Shown: positions 6,338-19,669 of the stretch, piece after piece
Position numbering within the stretch: the stretch's first letter is position 1
Layout of the letters: every line of letters starts with the position of its first letter
Source of the DNA: Acholeplasmatales bacterium
GTDB taxonomy: Bacteria > Bacillota_I > Bacilli_A > Acholeplasmatales > Anaeroplasmataceae
Reading direction: 5' to 3'
Length of the DNA stretch: 64,000 nt
NCBI GenBank assembly: GCA_017454375.1
Contig: JAFTDB010000022.1
Coordinates: 1 to 64,000 of the forward strand
The notes under the pieces: model-generated
The model's database searches: none
Told to the model about the DNA's origin: nothing
What the model saw: only the letters and a program-made list of their open reading frames with translations
Program-made: the position numbers and the translations under genes

Positions 6338-6346
6338 AATAATGCT

Positions 6347-6399
6347 AAAAGACTGTAAAAATTTCAAATTAAAATTTTGAAAAATTACAGTCTTTTTTC
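6347..6399 (+). terminator. Rho-independent terminator after folD
   Basis: Arms AAAAGACTGTAA (6347-6358) and TTACAGTCTTTT (6385-6396) enclose an AT-rich loop that may fold further. A T-run follows. It separates the purine unit from the NRPS block. Confidence 0.88.
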
Positions 6400-6432
6400 T
6401 TAATAGCATTACTATAAAAGGATGGTGGTTTT

Positions 6433-8160
6433 ATGGAGAATGTTAGAAATAACAAGAATATCAAAAAGAAATATCTCCAATTTTTCTTTTCCGTATTAGT
6501 ATCGGTTTTGATATTACAGATTACAACAATTGTTGACTCCATTATTGTTGGTACCTGCATAGGTACAAAGGAGATGTCAGGTGTTAAGGCATCTAATCCG
6601 ATAATTAGTATAGTCGCGGTTATCGCTACACTAATAAGTGTTGGAACAAGTATGGTGATTTCAATATCACTTGGTAAAAGAAATACTAAGAAAAGCGATT
6701 CAGCATTTACATTTGGATTTCTTCTATGTTTACTTGTTGGTGGATTAATAAGCCTACTTGGATGGTTCTTATCAGATAAGATAGTTACTTTATTTACAAG
6801 TAGCGCTGATGTTTTAGAGTTTGCTAAAACATATACCAAGATAGTTATTCTTGCAGCCCCTGCGATGATGTTATCAACCTATTTGGGTTACGCAATTAGA
6901 AGTGATGGCTTTGCTAAATTATCAATGACATTATTAATTGCTGGTGGCTTAATAAATATATCATTCGATTTAATATTTATATTAGGTGGTCATCTAGGAG
7001 TAACAGGTGCGGCAATCGCTACTGATATGAGTTATGTTGGTGGTGTACTAATTGCGGTAGTCTACCTATTTATGAAAAACCGTAATTTACATTTCACAAA
7101 TATATTCAAACGTGATAGTGGAATAAAAGAAATATTTACTGCCATTGTAAAGAATGGTGCTCCATCATCTTCAAGATTATTATTCGTTTCAATCTCAACA
7201 ATCATTGCAAATTATGTAATTGGTAAATATGTTGGCTATATGGGACTTGCGGTATTTGCTGTAGCATCCAATCTAAGCTTAATTGCTACGGCGGTGTTCC
7301 AATCATCCGGTGCTTCGATGATGCCAATCATGGGTGTGTTCTATGGTGAGAAGGATTATAAAGGAATCGAGCTTTTAGTTAGATATGTGATGTGCTTTTT
7401 ATTAGTCTTAGTCGTAATCATCATCATCTTGCTTGAAGCATTCGCTCCATTATACTTCCCATTATTTGGTATCATAGAGGTTATGGATGAATATGTAGTA
7501 TTCTTAAGATTATTCTCAATTGGTCTTGTATTCGCTGGAATCAATTACATTTTAATTTATTACTTTACAGCACTTCAAAAGATGACTGTTGGTGTATTGA
7601 TTCCACTTGTTGAACAAATCATATTATGTGTTCCACTTACATTTATGTTAATTCCTAACTACCAGCTTAACGGTCTAATTTGGATGTATCTAATCAGTGA
7701 AGGTGGCACAACATTAATTACATTTATTGTCCTATGTTTCATTAAGAAGAAAAAGAAGCTTGATAATATATTATTACTACCAAAGGCTAATAACGAATTG
7801 TTGTTGGACTTCACAGTACTTGCTAGTGATATAGAGGCAACAAAGATATCAGAGGATGTTGGTAGAATTCTTTTAGAAAATAATATAGATGAATTCAAAT
7901 CAAATCGTGTTGCTGTCATATTAGAAGAAATGATAGTCAATACGAACAATGCTGAAAAGCATAAAAAGAAGGTATTTATTGATATAAGAATAATTAAAAC
8001 AGCTGAATCAATCATTGTATCAATGCGTTCTAATGGTTATCCTTATAACCCTCTAATTGATACAGAGGATGAGATTTCTCAAAAGCTAATTAGCTCTTTA
8101 TCAATTAAATTGCGATATAACCAAATTATTGGATTTAATCAAACATTAATCGAGGTGTAG
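6433..8160 (+). CDS. MATE-family exporter fused to a C-terminal RsbW/GHKL-like ATPase domain
   Basis: Residues about 15-445 form the roughly 12 membrane segments of a MATE (MOP superfamily) efflux protein, seen in runs such as DSIIVGTCIGTKEMSG and AIATDMSYVGG. A plain MATE protein is about 450 residues; this one is 575. Residues about 456-575 resemble an anti-sigma-factor kinase fold: an N-box-like ILEEMIVNTNNAE near 495 and SNGYPYNPL near 532, matching ENNGVEFNPL in the sensor gene downstream. The glycine-rich ATP-lid motif (GGLGIRL there) is missing here, so the domain may bind a partner without acting as a kinase. The reading frame is unbroken and the NRPS ribosome site lies in its last codons, so the two are coupled. 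Likely role: export of the NRPS product under control of the STAS protein (inference). Confidence 0.88.
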   Translation: MENVRNNKNIKKKYLQFFFSVLVSVLILQITTIVDSIIVGTCIGTKEMSGVKASNPIISIVAVIATLISVGTSMVISISLGKRNTKKSDSAFTFGFLLCLLVGGLISLLGWFLSDKIVTLFTSSADVLEFAKTYTKIVILAAPAMMLSTYLGYAIRSDGFAKLSMTLLIAGGLINISFDLIFILGGHLGVTGAAIATDMSYVGGVLIAVVYLFMKNRNLHFTNIFKRDSGIKEIFTAIVKNGAPSSSRLLFVSISTIIANYVIGKYVGYMGLAVFAVASNLSLIATAVFQSSGASMMPIMGVFYGEKDYKGIELLVRYVMCFLLVLVVIIIILLEAFAPLYFPLFGIIEVMDEYVVFLRLFSIGLVFAGINYILIYYFTALQKMTVGVLIPLVEQIILCVPLTFMLIPNYQLNGLIWMYLISEGGTTLITFIVLCFIKKKKKLDNILLLPKANNELLLDFTVLASDIEATKISEDVGRILLENNIDEFKSNRVAVILEEMIVNTNNAEKHKKKVFIDIRIIKTAESIIVSMRSNGYPYNPLIDTEDEISQKLISSLSIKLRYNQIIGFNQTLIEV

Positions 8161-8164
8161 TATT

Positions 8165-11100
8165 ATGAAAAATGAGTATTTAGAAGTATTAGTTAAAAGA
8201 CTAGAAACTGAAGGTAAGAGAATTGCTATCAAGGATAAGGGAAAAGAAGTATCCTATGAAGAAATGTTTGAGCTTGCTAAAAAGACCGTTACTTATCTAG
8301 AAGGAAAAAAACTACAGCCTAAGGCGATGGTTCCTATCTATTTAGGATCTTGCTATGAATATATTTCATTAACTGTCGGTGTATGGCTAATGGGATATGC
8401 AGCAGTTCCAATGGGAACATCATTCCCTAAGGATAGAGTTGACTACATTCTATCTGAAATCAAATCTGATTTTGTACTTGGTGAAAAGGAACTTGCTGAA
8501 ATTAAAAAGTGTGAGCCATGTAAGAAATATTCAATTCCTGATAATGATGCACTTGCATTAATTATTTATACATCAGGTTCAACTGGTAACCCTAAGGGTA
8601 TCATGCATAATTTCAAGGGACTACTTAAGAAGGGTGATTTCACATATAAGCTAGAGGATAGCTTCTTAATGCTAGCACCATTTTATTTTGTTGCTTCCCT
8701 AACTATGTACAAGGTTTTAAGAGAAGGAGCTAAAGTAGTATTACCACCAGATGATGTAAGACTTGATATTCATAAGCTTGAGGATTACATCAAGGATGAA
8801 GAAATTGGTTATGTCTTCATACCACCTTCAGTACTTAAAAACTTTCATAATAAGTCTGATAAATTAAAGGTAGTTTATACAGGTAGCGAAAAGCTTGTTA
8901 ATGAAGAAAGTAAGGAAGGCTATAAGCTAATCAACTGTTATGGTATGACAGAGACATTAGGTACAGTATGTAACTTCTTAGTTGATAAAAAATATGATTC
9001 AACACCTGTTGGTAAGACTAAATATGAATATAAGCTTCTTGATGATGATGGTAAGGAAGTACCTAAGGGCTCTATTGGTGAGTTCTGTATCAAGGGCGAT
9101 TTTACTTTGGGCTATTTTAATGATCCAAAGAAAACAGAAGAGCTATTCCGTGGTGGGTATCTACACACTAACGATTTAATGAGAGAATTACCTGATGGAA
9201 ACCTAGTCTATGTTAATAGAAAGGACTGGATGGTAAAGATCAACGGCCAAAGAGTTGAGGTTGGTGAGGTTGAGGTTAGAATTCGTGACCTTGATGGTGT
9301 AGAGGACGCAATTGTAAAGGGCTTCGAAAATAGTGATGGTAATGCCTACCTATGTGCTTTCTACAAGGGTAGCTTAGAAGCTGATCAGATAAAAGAAAGC
9401 TTAAGAAAAGTATTACCACCTTATATGGTTCCACTATACTTTGTTAAGGTTAAAGAATTCTCATACCTACCTAATGGTAAGGTTAATAGAAAGGTGCTAC
9501 AGGCTCCAGACTTAGACAATCTAACAAGTGATTATGTTGCCCCTGTTGGAGAGCTAGAGGAAAGAATCTGTAAGGCATTTGAGGAAGTATTTGGATTAAA
9601 ACAAAGTGGACGTGATGATGATTTCTTCTTACTTGGTGGTGACTCAATTAAGGTAATGAAGCTATCAACAATCTTAAGCGATCTTAATTTATCAAGTAAG
9701 ACTGTTTATAAGGAAAGAACCCCTAAGAAGATTGCTGCGGCAATAAAGAAGGAAGCAAAGACTCATTTTGAGAATGCTAAAACATCTCCACTAAGCTATA
9801 CACAGCTTGGTATCTATACTGAATGTATGCTTAATAGAGGTAAGGCTATTTATAATAACCCAATCCTATTAAAGCTTGATAATAAGGTTGATCCTAAGAA
9901 ATTAGCTAAGGCATGTGAGGCTGCCGTAGAGGCTCACAAATATATTAAGGTTCATATCAAGGAAGATAATAATTCTAATCCATATATGGAACGTTATGAA
10001 TCTACATATAAACAAGAAGTTGAGAAAGTATCAAATAAGGATTTTGAAAATCTTAAATCTAATTTAGTTCAACCATTTGATATTACAACTGATGAATTAT
10101 TTAGAATAAGAATTATCAAAACTGAAGATGCATTATATTTATTCACTGATTTCCATCATATCATCTATGATGGTACATCAATGAAGATATTCACAGATGA
10201 TATCAATAATGCATATTTAGGAAAAAAACTAGAATGTGAAAAATATAGTATCTTAGATATCGCACTTAATGAAGCTGAGCTTCGTAAGGGTGATGATTAT
10301 GAAGAAAGTAAGAAATGGTATTTAGATACATTCAAATCAATTGAGCTAGATAGTAAACCAATTAAGGATAGAGACCTAGCTGATGTTAAATTTGAAACTA
10401 TTGATAGAGAACTTAAGGTTGATGCTGATGCACTAGTTGAATATTCAAAGAGATTAAATCTAACACTTAATGTTATCTCTATTGGTGCGTTTGCATATTT
10501 ACTATCAGTATTTAAGGATCAAAGAGAAGCATTATTCACAACTATCTATAATGGTAGAAGTGATTTGATTACTAATAGAACAGTCGCAATGATGGTAAAG
10601 ACATTACCAGTCTATGCTAGATATGATGAGAAGATGAGAATATCTGATTATTTAAATGATATTAGAAATCAACAAATGAATGCGATGAATAATGATATTT
10701 ATTCATTCCTAGAGGTTGCTAGTGAATGTGGTATTTCAAGTGATGTCTTATTCGCATACCAAGGTGAATATCTAGCAGTTAATGATATTTGTGGATACAA
10801 GTTTGAACGTATTCCTGTTGACTTTGAGGCTACAGGTTCAGCACTTGATTTCCAAGTATTCAAATATGGCGATAAGCTTAATGTTAAGCTTCAATATAAA
10901 GCTAATGAATATTCAGAAAAATTCATTAACCACTTCATCAATGCATATGAGGCAATATTGACTAACTTCATGAGTGAAGAAAGAGTAGCTAGTGTTGATG
11001 TATTATCAAAGGAAGAATTAGAATTATTAGATTCATTTAATAATAATGATGTTCCTTATGATGAAGAATTAACTATCCCTGCAATGTTTGAAAAATCTGC

Positions 11101-14100
11101 AAAAACAAATAAAGACAAGACTGCAGTAGTGTTTAAGGATGTTAATTTAACTTATAAGGAATTAGACGAATTAAGCTATAATCTTGCAACTATGATGGTT
11201 AAGAAGGGACTAAAGCGAGGAGATGTTGTATCAATCTTGATCGCACGTTCTGAGCTAATGCCTATTTGTGGACTTGCCGCAATGCGTGCATGTGTAACAT
11301 ATCAACCACTAGATTCTACATATCCTACTGAAAGATTAAATTTCATGATTAAGGATAGTAATGCTAAATTATTAATTACTACATCAGCTGAACGTGATCT
11401 AATTACTGAATATGATGGTGAAGTATTATTAATTGATAAGCTTACTGATATCAAGGGTGAGAATGTTAAATTAGAAAAGCCATCAAAGGATGATATCATG
11501 ATCCTTCTTTATACATCAGGCTCTACTGGTGTACCTAAGGGTGTTAAATTATCTCAAAAGAATATTTCAACATTCGTTGGCTGGTATCAAAGATATTTCA
11601 AATTAACTAATAAAGACACTGTTGGTGCTTATGCATCATTTGGCTTTGATGCCAATATGATGGATACATATCCAGCATTATCAACTGGCTCTAAGCTAGT
11701 AATACTTCCAGAAGAATATCGTCTAGATTTACAAAAGATGGATGAGTATTTTGAGTCTAATGGTGTAACACATCAATTCCTAACTACTCAGGTTGGTAGA
11801 CAATATGGTATCGATGGTAAGAATAAGCATCTAAGATATTTATCAATGGGTGGCGAAAGATTAATCATGTTCCCAATCAGTGATAAATATGAAACATATA
11901 ATGTATATGGTCCTACTGAATGTAGTATTCTATCTACTGCATATCAGGTTAAGCCTGATGATAAGAATGTACCAATTGGTCCAGTACTAGATAACTTCAA
12001 GGGCTATGTTGTGGGTGTTGATGGTAGACGTGTTCCTGTTGGAGCAATCGGTGAGTTATATTTAGCTGGTAACCAAGTAGGCTGTGGCTATTTAAATAGA
12101 CCAGAGAAAACTGCAGAAGTATTTATTGATAACCCATTTGATACAAATCCTAAATATAAGAATACTTACCGTACTGGTGATATCGTTAGATTCATGGAGG
12201 ATGGTAACATCGAATTTGTTGGTCGTCAGGATGGCCAGGTTAAGGTAAGAGGATTTAGAATTGAGCTATCTGAGGTTGAAGAGGTAATCAGAGGCTATGA
12301 TGGTGTTAAGGATGTTGCGGTAAAGGCATTTGATCATCCTAGTGGTGGTAAATATCTATGTGCTTATGTAGTATTATCTAAGGATATTGCATTTGATGAT
12401 ATCAAGAAATATATTCTAGGTATTAAACCTCCATACATGGTTCCTCAAACATTTGTTAAGCTAGACAGAATTCCATTAAATCAAAATGGTAAGGTAAATC
12501 GTAAGGCACTTGAAGAACCACAAATCGAAGTTAAGGAAGAAACTAATAGAACATTAAATGCACTTGAAGAAAAGCTAAAGGAAATTGCTTTAGGTGTACT
12601 TGGTGTTAAGGATGTATCTATATCTCAAAGCTTATTTGAATATGGATTAACTTCAATATTATCAATTAAGCTATTAACACAAATTTATAAAGAATTTGAT
12701 GTTGATATGTCACCAAAGGATTTAAATAATGATTTCACAATAATCAATATTGAAAATTACATTATCAATTATTGGCTATCAAATAAGGGAGCTGCAGAAG
12801 CACAGGTTCAAACTTATACATCTGCTCCACTTTCTAACCCACAAACTGGTGTTTATTTTGAATGCATTAAAAATCCAGAGGCTGTAACATATAACATTCC
12901 ATCAATTTTTAAGTTCAAGAAGAGCTTATCACTTGATGTATTAAAGACTACATTAAAGACTATTGCTAAAGAGCATAGAGAAATCAATGTTCACTTTGAA
13001 AATGTAAATGGTGATATCGTTCAGGTATACAATACATTTGAAATAGAACCAGAGGTAATTGATGTAGCAAGTGATGACATTTCAAAATACAAAGATGAAT
13101 TTATAAAACCATTTGATCTACATACAGGACCTCTTGCTAGATTTACAATTCTGAATGCTAAATCAAATATTTACTTGCTAGTTGATTTCCATCACCTAGT
13201 ATTTGATGGTGCATCAATGTCTATCTTCATTAATGATCTATCAAAGATTCTTGCTGGAGATAAGATTGAAAAAGAAGAGTATTCATATTTTGCATATGTT
13301 CATGATGAAAAAGCATTTGAGACTACACCTGATTACCAGAAGCGTCTTGATTACTTCAAGGAGATGTTTAATGAATTTGAATCATCTACAGAAGTAACTA
13401 ATGATATCAACCTTGGTGGTACAGAGCTTGCAACATACGCAGAACCATTTGATTTTGATAAGCTAGATAAATTCTCTAAGGATAACGGATTCACTCCTGC
13501 CCAGGTAATGCTTGCGGCCGTATATTACACAGTATCACGTTATGTTAATGATAAGAATGTATACTTATCAACTATTAGTAGTGGTAGAAGTAATCTAAAG
13601 CTATCTAATTTATTTGGTATGTTTGTTAATACAATACCTCTACATGTTAAGATTAGTGAAATGAAGGTGATGGATTTCATTAAGATGGCTCAAAAATCAT
13701 TTAATGGTGCCATTGAAAATGAATCATTCCCATTCGCTAAGATTAATGAGCTATATAGATTCAATCCAGCAATCGTATATGAATATCAATTAGGTATTAT
13801 TGATAAGCTAGATATTAAGGATTTAGAAGGTATTACATCACTTGAACAAGCATCTGCAAAATTCAAGGTATCTATTCATATTGAAAATGCGAATAATAAG
13901 CCTGCAATCGTAATGTATTATAATAAGGGATTATATACAGAAGATTTAATGACTAACTTCGCTAAATCAATTGAGATTGTCTTAAATAAATTAATGGATA
14001 ATCCTAATGAGAATATCCTACATATTAATTTATTAAATGATGAAAGAAGAAAAGAAATCGATAAGTTTGGTTGTATCGAACAAGGCCCATTATCATTTGA

Positions 14101-17017
14101 TCTATATCATCGTGGACTTGAGCTTCAAGCAAAGAAGAATGCAAATAAGCTAGCCTTAGTTGCAGAAGATAAGAAATTCACATTCGATGAATTAAATAAG
14201 GAAGCTAATAAGCTTGCTCATGCAATTATGAAGATGGGTATTAATAAGTCTCGTATTATCTTATTACTTCCTAGAACATCAAGATTAATTATTTCAATCT
14301 TTGGTGTTATGAAGTCTGGTAATGCATATATTCCTTGTGACCCTAATTATCCAAAGGAAAGAATCAACCTAATTATGGAGGATTCTGAATCTAAGCTAAT
14401 TATCACAACTAAGGAAATGGCTAAGGAATATGATAATGCTATAGATGTTGAAGAGCTACTTAAAAATAATGAGGTTAATAATCCTGATCTGGATATTTCT
14501 AGTGAAGATTTATGTTACCTAATTTATACATCAGGCTCAACAGGTAGACCTAAGGGTGTTATGTTATCACACCGTGGTGTATGTAACTACCATTCAGATG
14601 CTAAAGCAAATATCTATGTTCAAGCAATTAAGAGCTTGAATGCATTCCTAGCAGTTACAACTGTATCATTCGATATGTCTGTTAAGGAAATTGGTACACC
14701 TTTAACTAACGGTGTTACAATTGTCCTTGCTCCAGATAAAGCAACTAATGACCCAGTTGCATTAGCTGAATTAATTAAGACTAATAATGTTGATGGTATC
14801 AACGCAACTCCATCAAGATTAAAACAATATCTAGATGTTGATGTATTTGAAGAATGTGTTAAGAAATGTAAGTTCATCGCCAGTGGTGGTGAGAAGTATC
14901 CACTTCAATTACTTCAATATCTACAAGAGAATACTAAAGCAACTATTATGAACACTTATGGTCCAACAGAAATAAGTGTATCATGTAATATGAAGGATTT
15001 AACAAAGGCTAAATCAATTTCTGTTGGTAAGCCACTATATAACGTAATTGAATTTGTTGTCGATAGCGATGGCAATGAATTACCACGTGGAGTAGTTGGT
15101 GAATTATACATTGGTGGTAAGGGTGTAGGTAAGGGCTATAACAACCTACCTGATAAGACTAAGGCAGCCTTCATCAAGTATAAGGGAATTGATGTATATC
15201 GTTCTGGTGACTATGCTAGATGGAATAAAGATGGCGATGTAGAAATCCTTGGTAGAACTGATAACCAAATTAAGCTAAGAGGCTTAAGAATTGAGCTTGG
15301 TGAGATTGAGGGTGCACTTGCTAAAGCAACTGGTATTACAAACTCAGTTGTTAAGATTATGACAATCTCTAATGTTGAGCATCTATGTGCATACTTCACT
15401 GCTGATACCAAGATTAATGTTAATGATTTAAAGGATGAATTATCTAAGACATTAACTAAGTACATGGTACCAACTGCGTACTTACAACTTGCTAAGATGC
15501 CACTTACACCTAATGGTAAGATAGATGTTAAGAATCTACCAGAACCAGAGTTACTTGATGTTGGTGGACATGAAGCACCAAAAAATGATCTAGAAAAGAA
15601 ATTCTGTGATATCTTCAAAGAGATTTTGAATCTTGCCGATGTTGGTGCAACTGATTCATTCTTCGATATTGGTGGTACATCATTATCAGCAATTCGTGTT
15701 ACAGTTGGGGCAGCTAAGTTTGGCTATAAGCTAACATTCCCTGATGTATTTGCTAACCCAACACCAAGAGCGTTAGCTAAGCTTGTTGGTGGTGGAGAAG
15801 AGCCTACTGCATCAGATTTAGATAATGAAGTATATGATTATGATTACACTAAGATTGATGAGCTATTAAAGGGTAATAACCTAGCTAATTATCTACAAGG
15901 CGAAAGTATTAAGATGGGTAATGTATTATTAACAGGACCTACAGGATACTTAGGTATTCATATCCTACGTTATCTAATTGAGAATTATGATAGTAAGGTA
16001 TATTGCTTACTTCGTTCTAAGGGTGATGTAACAGCTGAGACTAGATTAAAGAGTCAATTATTCTATTATAATGAAAAGGATTATTCTGACCTATTCGGTA
16101 AGCGTATCTTCGTTATTGAAGGTGATGTTACAAAGGAATTAAAGGTCAAAGATGAATATCTAAAGAATATTAATACAATCATTAACTGTGCTGCCGTAGT
16201 TAAGCATTTCTCACAAGGCACAGAAATTGAAGATGTTAATATCGGTGGTGTTAGAAATCTACTTGATTTCGCAGAGAAGCACAAGCTTGCATTCATCCAA
16301 GTATCAACAGGCTCTACAATGAAGGCTCCACAGCGTGAAGGTGCTAAGCTTGTTGATAACGCAACAGAAGCAATGCTATTTATTGATCAATCATTAAATA
16401 ATAAATATGTTAGATCTAAATTCTTAGCTGAAAGATTAGTACTTGAGGCAGTAGCTGAGGGTAAGGTTATTGGTAAGATCATGAGAGTTGGTAACCTAGC
16501 TCCACGTGATACTGATGGTGAATTCCAAATCAACTTCAACACTAACTCAGCAATGGGTAGAATTAAAGCCTTCTACATGCTAGGCTGTGTTGGTTATGGA
16601 CAATTAAATCAAACAATTGAATTCTCACCAATCGATGATGTTGCCAAAGCTATCTTAAAGCTAATTGAAACACCAAAGGAATGTGTGGTATTTCATCCAT
16701 TCAATAACCATCGTGTTCTATATAACGATCTATTTGCTGTAATGAATAGTATTGATTTAACTATTAAAGCAGTTGAACCAGAGAAATTCGTTAAGATATT
16801 AGAGTTAGCTGAAAATGATCCAGAGAAGGCTAAGATCTTAACAAGTATGCTTGCATATAAGGGTAACAATGTTAAACCACCTCATACACCAGTTGCTGAC
16901 AACAACTACACAATGCAAGTTCTATATCGTAAAGGCTTTGCATTTACAAACACATCAACAGAGTACATTTCTAGATTCCTAGTAGCATTAAAGGGCTTAG
17001 GATTCTTTGAAGTATAG
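8165..17017 (+). CDS. Three-module non-ribosomal peptide synthetase with terminal thioester reductase
   Basis: The 2950-residue protein reads A-PCP-C-A-PCP-C-A-PCP-R. Adenylation cores (YTSGSTG) lie near residues 135, 1115 and 2121. Carrier-protein serines are S494 (LLGGDS), S1497 (EYGLTS) and S2506 (IGGTS). Condensation motifs HHxxxDG are intact at 664-670 and 1676-1682. The last domain (from about 2560) has the NAD(P)-binding GPTGYLG (2591-2597) and a YVRSK pair (Y2748, K2752), typical of reductive chain release. There is no thioesterase, epimerase or methylation domain and no starter condensation domain. A1 has Phe175 where amino-acid-activating domains have the Asp that binds the alpha-amino group, so it may load a carboxylic acid. 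Predicted product: an N-acyl dipeptide aldehyde or alcohol. No phosphopantetheinyl transferase gene lies in the window, so one must be elsewhere. Confidence 0.95.
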   Translation: MKNEYLEVLVKRLETEGKRIAIKDKGKEVSYEEMFELAKKTVTYLEGKKLQPKAMVPIYLGSCYEYISLTVGVWLMGYAAVPMGTSFPKDRVDYILSEIKSDFVLGEKELAEIKKCEPCKKYSIPDNDALALIIYTSGSTGNPKGIMHNFKGLLKKGDFTYKLEDSFLMLAPFYFVASLTMYKVLREGAKVVLPPDDVRLDIHKLEDYIKDEEIGYVFIPPSVLKNFHNKSDKLKVVYTGSEKLVNEESKEGYKLINCYGMTETLGTVCNFLVDKKYDSTPVGKTKYEYKLLDDDGKEVPKGSIGEFCIKGDFTLGYFNDPKKTEELFRGGYLHTNDLMRELPDGNLVYVNRKDWMVKINGQRVEVGEVEVRIRDLDGVEDAIVKGFENSDGNAYLCAFYKGSLEADQIKESLRKVLPPYMVPLYFVKVKEFSYLPNGKVNRKVLQAPDLDNLTSDYVAPVGELEERICKAFEEVFGLKQSGRDDDFFLLGGDSIKVMKLSTILSDLNLSSKTVYKERTPKKIAAAIKKEAKTHFENAKTSPLSYTQLGIYTECMLNRGKAIYNNPILLKLDNKVDPKKLAKACEAAVEAHKYIKVHIKEDNNSNPYMERYESTYKQEVEKVSNKDFENLKSNLVQPFDITTDELFRIRIIKTEDALYLFTDFHHIIYDGTSMKIFTDDINNAYLGKKLECEKYSILDIALNEAELRKGDDYEESKKWYLDTFKSIELDSKPIKDRDLADVKFETIDRELKVDADALVEYSKRLNLTLNVISIGAFAYLLSVFKDQREALFTTIYNGRSDLITNRTVAMMVKTLPVYARYDEKMRISDYLNDIRNQQMNAMNNDIYSFLEVASECGISSDVLFAYQGEYLAVNDICGYKFERIPVDFEATGSALDFQVFKYGDKLNVKLQYKANEYSEKFINHFINAYEAILTNFMSEERVASVDVLSKEELELLDSFNNNDVPYDEELTIPAMFEKSAKTNKDKTAVVFKDVNLTYKELDELSYNLATMMVKKGLKRGDVVSILIARSELMPICGLAAMRACVTYQPLDSTYPTERLNFMIKDSNAKLLITTSAERDLITEYDGEVLLIDKLTDIKGENVKLEKPSKDDIMILLYTSGSTGVPKGVKLSQKNISTFVGWYQRYFKLTNKDTVGAYASFGFDANMMDTYPALSTGSKLVILPEEYRLDLQKMDEYFESNGVTHQFLTTQVGRQYGIDGKNKHLRYLSMGGERLIMFPISDKYETYNVYGPTECSILSTAYQVKPDDKNVPIGPVLDNFKGYVVGVDGRRVPVGAIGELYLAGNQVGCGYLNRPEKTAEVFIDNPFDTNPKYKNTYRTGDIVRFMEDGNIEFVGRQDGQVKVRGFRIELSEVEEVIRGYDGVKDVAVKAFDHPSGGKYLCAYVVLSKDIAFDDIKKYILGIKPPYMVPQTFVKLDRIPLNQNGKVNRKALEEPQIEVKEETNRTLNALEEKLKEIALGVLGVKDVSISQSLFEYGLTSILSIKLLTQIYKEFDVDMSPKDLNNDFTIINIENYIINYWLSNKGAAEAQVQTYTSAPLSNPQTGVYFECIKNPEAVTYNIPSIFKFKKSLSLDVLKTTLKTIAKEHREINVHFENVNGDIVQVYNTFEIEPEVIDVASDDISKYKDEFIKPFDLHTGPLARFTILNAKSNIYLLVDFHHLVFDGASMSIFINDLSKILAGDKIEKEEYSYFAYVHDEKAFETTPDYQKRLDYFKEMFNEFESSTEVTNDINLGGTELATYAEPFDFDKLDKFSKDNGFTPAQVMLAAVYYTVSRYVNDKNVYLSTISSGRSNLKLSNLFGMFVNTIPLHVKISEMKVMDFIKMAQKSFNGAIENESFPFAKINELYRFNPAIVYEYQLGIIDKLDIKDLEGITSLEQASAKFKVSIHIENANNKPAIVMYYNKGLYTEDLMTNFAKSIEIVLNKLMDNPNENILHINLLNDERRKEIDKFGCIEQGPLSFDLYHRGLELQAKKNANKLALVAEDKKFTFDELNKEANKLAHAIMKMGINKSRIILLLPRTSRLIISIFGVMKSGNAYIPCDPNYPKERINLIMEDSESKLIITTKEMAKEYDNAIDVEELLKNNEVNNPDLDISSEDLCYLIYTSGSTGRPKGVMLSHRGVCNYHSDAKANIYVQAIKSLNAFLAVTTVSFDMSVKEIGTPLTNGVTIVLAPDKATNDPVALAELIKTNNVDGINATPSRLKQYLDVDVFEECVKKCKFIASGGEKYPLQLLQYLQENTKATIMNTYGPTEISVSCNMKDLTKAKSISVGKPLYNVIEFVVDSDGNELPRGVVGELYIGGKGVGKGYNNLPDKTKAAFIKYKGIDVYRSGDYARWNKDGDVEILGRTDNQIKLRGLRIELGEIEGALAKATGITNSVVKIMTISNVEHLCAYFTADTKINVNDLKDELSKTLTKYMVPTAYLQLAKMPLTPNGKIDVKNLPEPELLDVGGHEAPKNDLEKKFCDIFKEILNLADVGATDSFFDIGGTSLSAIRVTVGAAKFGYKLTFPDVFANPTPRALAKLVGGGEEPTASDLDNEVYDYDYTKIDELLKGNNLANYLQGESIKMGNVLLTGPTGYLGIHILRYLIENYDSKVYCLLRSKGDVTAETRLKSQLFYYNEKDYSDLFGKRIFVIEGDVTKELKVKDEYLKNINTIINCAAVVKHFSQGTEIEDVNIGGVRNLLDFAEKHKLAFIQVSTGSTMKAPQREGAKLVDNATEAMLFIDQSLNNKYVRSKFLAERLVLEAVAEGKVIGKIMRVGNLAPRDTDGEFQINFNTNSAMGRIKAFYMLGCVGYGQLNQTIEFSPIDDVAKAILKLIETPKECVVFHPFNNHRVLYNDLFAVMNSIDLTIKAVEPEKFVKILELAENDPEKAKILTSMLAYKGNNVKPPHTPVADNNYTMQVLYRKGFAFTNTSTEYISRFLVALKGLGFFEV

Positions 17018-17031
17018 AAAGGAAGATTAAT

Positions 17032-17328
17032 ATGGAAATAGTAGTAAAACATGGAAATGAATTAACTGTAGCTTTAAAGGGAAGATTAGATACTAATACT
17101 TCCCCTGAGCTAGAAAAATGCTTAAGAGAGGAACAGATTACTGAAGACTTAGTAGTTCTTGATTTTAAAGAGCTAGAGTACATTTCATCTGCTGGCTTAA
17201 GAGTATTACTAGCAACAAAGAAGGTATTGGATTCAAATGGCAAGAAATTTGAAATTCATAACATCAATGATGTTGTTAAGGAAGTATTTAACGTTACAGG
17301 ATTTGCAAATATTTTAACTATTAAATAG
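17032..17328 (+). CDS. STAS-domain protein, anti-anti-sigma-factor-like
   Basis: This 98-residue single-domain protein has the classic length of SpoIIAA/RsbV. The phospho-acceptor loop EYISSAGLRVLL is intact; by alignment with RsbV the acceptor should be Ser53. Such proteins bind an RsbW-type kinase when unphosphorylated and are reset by a PP2C phosphatase. Here both partner types are encoded next door: phosphatase and kinase in the following gene and a kinase-like domain on the MATE protein. It starts 14 bases after the NRPS stop with GAAAGGAAG as ribosome site. No sigma factor is nearby, so the switch may act on the exporter rather than on transcription (inference). Confidence 0.92.
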   Translation: MEIVVKHGNELTVALKGRLDTNTSPELEKCLREEQITEDLVVLDFKELEYISSAGLRVLLATKKVLDSNGKKFEIHNINDVVKEVFNVTGFANILTIK

Positions 17329-17343
17329 AAAAGAGTTGTTATT

Positions 17344-19530
17344 ATGCGTTTATATATACGCCATAAAATATTCCTCTTAGGCTTTGGATTAACACTCTTT
17401 TTAGTCATAGTTGCGTTTGTAGCGAGCTTCTTTACATATAAGAATCGTGTCGAGTCTAAATATGATGAATATTTAAAAACATCTATAGATGTTGCAGCTG
17501 ATTGGTTAAGTGATTTAAGGGCTAAGGTTGAATCATATTCTACATCAGAATCTAGAAGCGACGTAGTTAATTATGTTATTGATACATATGAAACGATAGT
17601 AGCGGATGATCCTAATTATCCAAAAAATACATCTTTAGAAGAATATTATAACTACTTTAATTCTAAGTATTCTGATTTATATCCTTCTGCATCAGGAGGA
17701 GCCATAATAGGAATGAGTAGAACCGGCCCAACCAACAGAGCCAATCATGCTAGCTTAAGATCTGATCTTGTATCAGCACTTAGTGTCGCAGATGGTGTAC
17801 TAGGTGAACTAGTCTATTATGATCAAACACGTAACCGTTACGTAGACATTGTTAATACAATGTTCAAATTTGAAGATGAGACGGCTACTGGTGATTTTCC
17901 AGGCTCATATAAGACTCTTACAGCTGAAGATGTGAAGATTATAGATTATATAACTTCAGGTGGCTATACACCACTTGGAGAAACCGTACGAATCTATAAT
18001 AGAAATTATGCGGACGGCTCTTATCTTACATACTATATAGATATAGTAGATGGAGATAAGTTTGTAGGTAGAATAATTATGAACTACGATAAGTTAGTTA
18101 TTCAAAGCACACTTCAGGAATTCGCAATTATTCTAGCATCAACACTTTTAGGTATTGGTGTACTACTTGTATTATTCTATTCATACTTTGCCCATCTAAT
18201 GGTTGTTAAGAATGTTAAAAAGCTAACAAAGACTTCTGATAAATTCAAGGATGATTTATTAAATAATAAATCGTTAGAAGTAATTAAAACAAACATTAAT
18301 ACACATGATGAAATAAGAATGTTATCAGATTCATTTGAAATGCTAGAGGATGAAATTATTTCTTATGCAAAAAGAATTGAAGAAGAAACTACAAGTAGAT
18401 TAAAGATGCAATCAGAGTTAGAGATTGCATCAGATATCCAGCTTGGGGCCCTACCTACAACTAATTTAAATGATGAGAATGTCTTGATTCGTGCATCAAT
18501 TAAATCAGCTAAAGAGGTCGGTGGTGATTTCTACGATTATTTCTATATTGATGATGATCACTTGGCAATCATTATAAGTGATGTATCTGGTAAGGGTGTT
18601 CCTGCAGCCTTGTTTATGATGAAGGCCAAAGAGCTTATTAAATCAAAGCTAATGAGCAATGAAGAATTAACAAAAGCTTGCTTCGATGTTAACAATGCCT
18701 TAATTGATAATAACAAGCAAGGATTGTTCATCACTGCCTTCATTGGTATATTGGATGTTAAGAGTAGAGTATTAAGATTTGTTAATGCTGGACATGAAAG
18801 ACCATTCATTATTGGTATTAAGGATGTTAAGCAACTAAAAGTTAATTCTAACTTCATCCTAGGTGGAGTAGAAAACTTTGAATACAATGCTGATGAGATT
18901 AAGCTTAATGAGAAGGATAAGCTATTCTTACATACAGATGGCTTAAATGAATCTATTAATTCTAACAAAGAAGAATTTGGCTATGATAGAATCTTAAAGG
19001 TTCTTGAGGAAGATAAGGATTTACAAATTAGTGATTGCCTAAATAATATGAAAGGTGAGCTTGCCACATTCGTAGGTGATGAAGAAGCATTTGATGATGT
19101 TACAATGATGATTGTAGAGCTTAAAACACCAAAGCTTCATTTCAAATTTGTGAATCGTGGATATGACATAATTGATATCGTTAATAATAGAATTAATGAT
19201 TATTATTCATATGTAGATTCAAAGGTATTATCTGAGGTTAATATCATCTTTGATGAGCTTTTAAATAATTATGTTTCTTATGAAGATAAAGAAAAGCTCG
19301 TTATTGAAATTGATATTGAGCTTAAAGATAATGTATTCATCTTTGATATAGAAAATAATGGTGTTGAATTCAACCCATTAGATACTCACGAGAAGAAGAT
19401 AAAAGAGTTTGATCCTGATATGCCACTTGGTGGACTAGGAATAAGACTAGTTCAAAAGCTATCTACAGATATTAAATATCAACGAAAAGATGATAAGAAT
19501 ATCTTAAAAATTAAGAAGGCAATTAAGTAA
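17344..19530 (+). CDS. Membrane sensor with HAMP, SpoIIE/RsbU-type PP2C phosphatase and RsbW-like kinase domains
   Basis: The 728-residue protein has a membrane segment at about 9-31, an extracytoplasmic sensor region to about 258, a second membrane segment at about 260-285, a HAMP-like linker, and a SpoIIE-type PP2C phosphatase from about 357. Phosphatase motifs are IQLGALP, VGGDFYDYF, SDVSGKGVPAALFM, VNAGHERPF, LHTDGLNES and FDDVTMM. From about 595 a GHKL kinase domain follows, with the N-box DELLNNY, ENNGVEFNPL and the ATP-lid GGLGIRLVQK all present. One chain can therefore, in principle, both phosphorylate and dephosphorylate the STAS partner according to an external signal. It closes the NRPS operon and is followed by a terminator. 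The ligand is unknown. Confidence 0.92.
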   Translation: MRLYIRHKIFLLGFGLTLFLVIVAFVASFFTYKNRVESKYDEYLKTSIDVAADWLSDLRAKVESYSTSESRSDVVNYVIDTYETIVADDPNYPKNTSLEEYYNYFNSKYSDLYPSASGGAIIGMSRTGPTNRANHASLRSDLVSALSVADGVLGELVYYDQTRNRYVDIVNTMFKFEDETATGDFPGSYKTLTAEDVKIIDYITSGGYTPLGETVRIYNRNYADGSYLTYYIDIVDGDKFVGRIIMNYDKLVIQSTLQEFAIILASTLLGIGVLLVLFYSYFAHLMVVKNVKKLTKTSDKFKDDLLNNKSLEVIKTNINTHDEIRMLSDSFEMLEDEIISYAKRIEEETTSRLKMQSELEIASDIQLGALPTTNLNDENVLIRASIKSAKEVGGDFYDYFYIDDDHLAIIISDVSGKGVPAALFMMKAKELIKSKLMSNEELTKACFDVNNALIDNNKQGLFITAFIGILDVKSRVLRFVNAGHERPFIIGIKDVKQLKVNSNFILGGVENFEYNADEIKLNEKDKLFLHTDGLNESINSNKEEFGYDRILKVLEEDKDLQISDCLNNMKGELATFVGDEEAFDDVTMMIVELKTPKLHFKFVNRGYDIIDIVNNRINDYYSYVDSKVLSEVNIIFDELLNNYVSYEDKEKLVIEIDIELKDNVFIFDIENNGVEFNPLDTHEKKIKEFDPDMPLGGLGIRLVQKLSTDIKYQRKDDKNILKIKKAIK

Positions 19531-19536
19531 AAAAAT

Positions 19537-19570
19537 AAGCAATCTTCCAGTTGGAGGATTGCTTTTATTT
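19537..19570 (+). terminator. Rho-independent terminator of the NRPS operon
   Basis: Arms AAGCAATCTTCC and GGAGGATTGCTT, with one G-T pair and a 4-base loop, are followed by a T-rich tail. Confidence 0.9.
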
Positions 19571-19669
19571 ACCCTACATTATAGTAATTGGCACACTATG
19601 CTAAAATATCGTGATTTATTGATTTGATTATATTTTATAAAATATCTAATTTATCCTTTAATAAACGCA

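Follow-up and report, generated by a model that had tools for sequence, protein, structure and literature searches.

Results

We analyzed a window of 64,000 nucleotides from an Acholeplasmatales bacterium (GCA_017454375.1, contig JAFTDB010000022.1, positions 1-64,000 of the forward strand), in which four adjacent open reading frames encode a MATE-family exporter with a C-terminal RsbW-like domain, a nonribosomal peptide synthetase (NRPS), a STAS protein, and a membrane sensor. All four lie head to tail on the + strand, with intergenic gaps of 4, 14, and 15 bases (MATE/NRPS, NRPS/STAS, and STAS/sensor, respectively). The arrangement originally predicted from the sequence, four genes head to tail with gaps of 4-15 bases, is exact in its coordinates, strands, and gaps. 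The locus contains the following features.

6338-6408, + strand: hairpin with a T-run in the interval that separates folD from the MATE gene, probably serving as the terminator of folD (RNA fold -19.4 kcal/mol, z -5.85)
6433-8160, + strand: MATE-family exporter, 575 amino acids, with a C-terminal RsbW/SpoIIAB-like domain at about residues 455-575 (MatE E 4e-38; fold match)
7735-8157, + strand: stretch of the exporter modeled as the RsbW-like domain (Glu and Asn of the N box kept, Asp of the G1 box replaced by Ser, glycine-rich G2 box lost)
8165-17017, + strand: three-module NRPS, 2950 amino acids, with a terminal thioester reductase (Pfam)
17032-17328, + strand: STAS-only protein, 98 amino acids, RsbV/SpoIIAA-like (STAS 3.7e-16; TIGR00377 above cut-off)
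17344-19530, + strand: membrane sensor, 728 amino acids, with a SpoIIE-type PP2C domain and an RsbW-like HATPase domain (SpoIIE 2.8e-38; HATPase_c_2 7.4e-11)
19537-19564, + strand: hairpin resembling an intrinsic terminator, closing the unit (12 pairs; fold of 19530-19580, z -5.1)

The downstream hairpin starts 7 bases past the stop codon of the sensor gene. Hairpins are hence found on both flanks, on the folD side and on the sensor side, which argues for a self-contained four-gene unit.

The exporter has the two MatE halves expected of a MATE protein in Pfam and scores above the cut-off of TIGR00797. Our Pfam search of the window's exporter returned MatE only and did not detect the C-terminal RsbW-like domain. 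Relatives that align end to end with the window copy match HATPase_c_2 (PF13581) above the curated cut-off. We modeled the C-terminal segment from the window's own sequence and 44 relatives (predicted local distance difference test score (pLDDT) 84). The best structural matches of the model are SpoIIAB, RsbW, and mycobacterial UsfX, with Z scores of 14-15; histidine kinases score about 8. These matches span 103-121 residues with root mean square deviations of 1.9-2.9, as expected for the GHKL fold of anti-sigma factors. Because the relatives match HATPase_c_2 and the model matches SpoIIAB, RsbW, and UsfX, we assign the last ~120 residues of the exporter to an RsbW-type domain, in agreement with the original prediction. 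Ordinary MATE proteins end ahead of this domain. Most MATE frames listed for the genus have 430-505 residues, and one of 653 amino acids in genome G007 gives no match to the RsbW-like domain. None of the matching places in 119 plasmid records with a MATE hit spans 80% of the window exporter, and the best end near residue 437.

In the NRPS, Pfam recognizes three AMP-binding, two Condensation, and three PP-binding domains and one NAD_binding_4 domain. This count agrees with the three modules proposed earlier, and the domain order read from the sequence is A-T-C-A-T-C-A-T-reductase. The best NCBIfam match of the protein is AusA, below the AusA cut-off. A terminal thioester reductase in an NRPS predicts reductive release of the product.

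The STAS protein of the window is 61-71% identical to the cassette-type STAS proteins of its genus. Its Ser-53, a putative phosphosite that is invariant in 15 relatives, occupies the position of the phosphorylated serine in SpoIIAA. The sensor consists, in order, of an N-terminal helix, an outer domain, a second helix, the PP2C domain (residues 403-593), and the RsbW-like HATPase domain (residues 624-725). A model of its N-terminal part (pLDDT 83) has Cache-type sensor domains as its best PDB matches, which are weak (E ~0.01, low TM-scores), and we tentatively describe the outer domain as Cache-like. The sensor also matches NCBIfam SiaA weakly. As in the SypE/SypA kind of system, a single protein with PP2C and RsbW-like domains adjoins a STAS gene in the window.

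We surveyed the locus with one genome per species, seeding the search with exporter sequences from NRPS loci. Most surveyed genomes are metagenome assemblies, in which a missing gene may be an assembly gap. The scan returned 52 loci, 45 of them exporter fusions. Fused exporter, NRPS, STAS, and sensor genes are contiguous in 31 species-level genomes, the window included, and the four-gene set (hereafter, the cassette) therefore does co-occur in the way the original prediction had proposed to check. This contiguity is far above chance. Gaps within the 31 cassettes range from -133 to +135 bases but are mostly between -17 and +15, and overlaps of a few bases are frequent. An NRPS adjoins 43 of the 46 loci with a MATE/RsbW-domain protein, a share biased upward by seeding from NRPS loci. 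Most of the cassettes come from rumen or gut Bacillota, largely metagenome assemblies, and the record titles name Acholeplasmatales, Erysipelotrichaceae, Bacillales, Clostridia, and Christensenella. Their commonest gene order is NRPS-exporter-STAS-sensor; the exporter-first order of the window is rare. A phosphopantetheinyl transferase gene overlaps the NRPS start in many cassettes and lies elsewhere in the window's genome. Of 392 genomes sampled evenly across the phylum, only three match the exporter domain strongly, the window's own genome among them. The cassette is concentrated rather than universal.

The genes also occur together when they are dispersed. Where exporter and STAS genes are not adjacent, the genome still has a STAS gene in all 20 cases examined. 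Genome G001 carries the exporter-NRPS pair, the STAS gene, and the sensor gene at three separate places, and a STAS-sensor pair lies separately in G469. Within the genus, a cassette-type STAS protein is present in 7 of 8 genomes with a fused exporter versus 2 of 19 without one (Fisher p 0.0003); in both exceptions (G006 and G009), an NRPS lies close to the STAS-sensor genes.

We compared the lineages of the switch proteins with those of the exporter and NRPS. In the sensor tree, the window is sister to G012 inside its own genus (Shimodaira-Hasegawa-like approximate likelihood ratio test (SH-aLRT) 99). In the exporter tree, it groups with G001 and a Clostridia metagenome-assembled genome (L129), outside the main cassette clade. 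STAS and sensor of the window are hence of the genus lineage, and its exporter and NRPS are of another, so that one switch has combined with two distinct pairs of fused exporter and NRPS. In our view, this is evidence that the switch needs a fused exporter, although an NRPS accompanied it both times. Two further loci (L170 and L201), in which fused exporters lie near STAS proteins and no NRPS was seen, point in the same direction. A mirror-tree test for the STAS protein following the exporter domain gave a signal that was gone once the window was left out, and it was dropped.

We next compared the two RsbW-like domains, taking residue roles from SpoIIAB. All 48 exporter domains have the catalytic Glu, 46 the Mg-binding Asn, and 45 the adenine-binding Asp, but their glycine-rich loop is degenerate; no cassette has a shortened copy of the domain. 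The 37 sensor domains all have Glu and Asn, and 36 have the glycine loop, but the adenine-binding Asp is replaced in 31 of 35 cassette-type sensors. The losses in the two domains thus complement each other, and in most cassettes the STAS kinase may be the exporter domain. The window departs from this pattern in its exporter domain, where the ATP-binding motifs (N, G1, and G2 boxes) are incomplete, with Asp replaced by Ser and the G2 box lost. Its sensor domain retains Glu, Asn, and GGLG and has Asn in place of the G1 Asp. With Asp and loop missing from the exporter domain and only the mild Asp to Asn change in the sensor domain, the latter looks like the better kinase candidate in the window. 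The earlier proposal that the sensor kinase domain phosphorylates Ser-53 is accordingly plausible for the window; it is not established for the family, in which most cassette sensors have the Asp replaced.

The window's genome (assembly 92.5% complete) was searched for partners of the switch. The search found a single STAS domain and a single HATPase_c_2 match above the cut-off, both in the operon, the latter being the sensor. Two hallmarks of a classical partner switch are present in the window, namely a STAS protein with the conserved phosphoserine position and a SpoIIE/RsbU-type PP2C domain (PF07228, 2.8e-38), but a stand-alone anti-sigma kinase and a cognate SigB/SigF-type sigma factor are not. 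A Sigma70_r2 search of the genome yielded RpoD, one extracytoplasmic function (ECF)-type factor, and one weak 178-amino acid sigma-like protein; no stand-alone RsbW or SpoIIAB and no SigB, SigF, or SigG was found there. No recurring sigma gene was observed in the cassette across the 31 genomes. The claim that the set lacks a sigma factor and stays together without one in relatives holds for these genomes, and the genome search found no sigma-factor kinase encoded elsewhere to which the STAS protein might bind instead.

Several loci combine parts of these systems in other ways. Five loci (L196:9122-10888, L197:6658-8424, L198:5137-6900, L201:3427-5253, and L202:6185-8044) encode MATE proteins with an RsbW-like domain and have no NRPS nearby; in L201, a 417-amino acid STAS protein is encoded two genes downstream of the fused exporter. 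At two Selenomonadaceae loci (L134:3587-5162 and L136:11742-12410), a fused exporter-NRPS pair is followed by a phosphopantetheinyl transferase gene, with a DUF362 protein in between in L134. Directly downstream of a full cassette in L147, up to position 17676, lie genes for two STAS proteins (97 and 384 amino acids) and a 620-amino acid SpoIIE+HATPase protein. A second partner-switch set is found in the same genus (L094:5781-9602, L095:6060-9920, L096:7543-11383, and L097:6120-10085). It encodes, head to tail, a STAS protein, a RelA/SpoT-domain protein (364 amino acids), an HD_4-domain protein (188 amino acids), and a SpoIIE+HATPase protein, has no sigma factor, and looks like a split (p)ppGpp synthetase/hydrolase under a partner switch. 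In L101, L102, L103, L104, and L028 (genomes G007, G016, G014, G021, and G020, respectively), spoIIAA-spoIIAB are directly followed by spoVAC-/spoVAD-like genes, with no sigF between them.

Discussion

We see about an even chance that the locus encodes a sigma-free partner switch with an RsbW-like partner built into the exporter, controlling a reductase-released peptide at the exporter. Because we find no transcription factor for the switch to act on, it most likely acts on the exporter itself. In such a circuit, the membrane sensor would read an outside signal through its Cache-like domain, and its PP2C domain would dephosphorylate Ser-53 of the STAS protein. An RsbW-like domain would phosphorylate the STAS protein, that of the sensor in the window and possibly that of the exporter in most relatives. 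Unphosphorylated STAS would then bind the RsbW-like domain fused to the exporter, as RsbV binds RsbW, and change exporter activity; we lean slightly toward binding opening the exporter rather than closing it. A further-reaching reading is that the output of the switch is a membrane exporter with a built-in anti-sigma-type domain, that an outside signal opens or shuts peptide secretion post-translationally, and that two half-decayed domains share the kinase and reader roles in a lineage-dependent manner. We put this forward tentatively, as a possibility somewhat short of even.

Several observations weigh against a switch that acts at the exporter. Of all copies, the exporter domain of the window has decayed furthest, and it may be a relic. 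Selenomonadaceae have fused exporter-NRPS pairs without an adjacent STAS or sensor gene. No fused exporter was found in G009 (NRPS-STAS-sensor) or in G006 (STAS-sensor, with an NRPS end nearby), whose assemblies are 85 and 79% complete, respectively. Finally, distance correlations do not show the STAS protein to follow the exporter domain beyond their shared cassette history.

The strongest alternative, which we nevertheless consider unlikely, is that the exporter's RsbW-like domain is a kinase or membrane tether for the STAS protein rather than the regulated output, which would be NRPS synthesis or another protein. A kinase role is favored by the conserved Asp, Glu, and Asn of the exporter domains, set against the Asp lost from most cassette sensors, but the window's domain, which lacks Asp and the glycine-rich loop, is an unlikely kinase. 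STAS distances closely track those of the NRPS reductase (r 0.90, window left out), and G006 and G009 combine STAS and sensor with an NRPS; set against this, no STAS-binding domain is known on the NRPS, and L170 and L201 have the fused exporter near STAS proteins with no NRPS seen.

It is improbable that the STAS protein instead acts on a sigma factor or other regulator encoded elsewhere, setting expression of the NRPS operon in a conventional transcriptional switch. Classical RsbV/SpoIIAA systems do work transcriptionally, regulation of NRPS expression was proposed for similar methanogen genes (Leahy et al. 2010, PMC2812497), and the window's genome has the ECF-type and the weak sigma-like protein. 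Yet that genome lacks a stand-alone RsbW/SpoIIAB and SigB, SigF, and SigG, and the cassettes show no recurring sigma gene. Similar genes are moreover present in an archaeon, and archaea are not known to have bacterial sigma factors. A classical sigma switch as the main explanation was rejected as very unlikely, the searches of the genome for STAS, HATPase_c_2, and Sigma70_r2 having found no partner.

There is a slim chance that the sensor alone drives STAS phosphorylation, as a SypE-like kinase and phosphatase, and that the exporter domain is a functionless vestige. In its favor, a single protein of Vibrio fischeri, SypE, unites an RsbW-like kinase with a PP2C domain and acts on a STAS protein with no sigma factor involved, and the exporter domain of the window is degenerate. 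One would expect a remnant to be truncated or missing, however, and every cassette retains the domain at full length, with Glu invariant and Asn nearly so. That the four genes are neighbors by chance or merely co-transcribed, with no functional circuit, is a general possibility only and was rejected as having a negligible probability, given their contiguity in 31 species-level genomes and their co-occurrence even when dispersed.

Almost all known partner switches control transcription; the few sigma-free exceptions act on a diguanylate cyclase or on a target not yet known. If the exporter is indeed the output here, direct control of secretion would join the known outputs, and many rumen and gut bacteria would time the release of a reductase-released peptide by an outside signal. 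The puzzle posed by methanogen NRPS clusters, which carry sigma-type regulators in a host without sigma factors, becomes testable, with a candidate target. Our search of the open-access literature, subscription papers being outside its scope, found no paper on a MATE-HATPase fusion or on a multi-species cassette. Genes of these kinds around an NRPS were reported in a methanogen, Methanobrevibacter ruminantium, in 2010; the literature searched described neither the exporter fusion nor a conserved cassette of this size.

We compared the window with previously described systems. In Methanobrevibacter ruminantium, two serine phosphatases, an anti-sigma factor antagonist, and a MatE exporter surround an NRPS, for which environment sensing, regulation of NRPS expression, and export were proposed (Leahy et al. 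2010, PMC2812497). The window, with NRPS, MatE, STAS, and serine phosphatase genes as neighbors, fits this published description, by which the comparison was made. Both have a reductase-ended NRPS, MatE, an anti-sigma factor antagonist, and serine phosphatases (mru0066-0071 and mru0513-0516 of strain M1, with a phosphopantetheinyl transferase in a related set), but the M1 cluster has two serine phosphatases and a two-module NRPS. In SypE/SypA of V. fischeri, a PP2C-plus-RsbW protein likewise acts on a STAS protein, and no sigma target is known (PMC8256260, PMC12826045). SypE, a response regulator, carries a REC domain, whereas the sensor of the window sits in the membrane and has a Cache-like domain; the target of SypA is not known, and that of the window's STAS protein is likely the fused exporter. 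SiaABCD of Pseudomonas aeruginosa is also sigma-free and shares a SiaA-type phosphatase and a SiaB-type kinase fold with the window (exporter domain Z 14 to 6kko), but consists of four separate proteins and has a diguanylate cyclase as its output. The aureusimine-type NRPS AusA shares reductase release with the window NRPS and has two modules versus three. With the RsbU/RsbV/RsbW-SigB and SpoIIE/SpoIIAA/SpoIIAB-SigF switches, the window has in common the PP2C domain, the STAS phosphoserine position, and RsbW-like domains, but it has no sigma factor, and an RsbW-like domain is part of the exporter.

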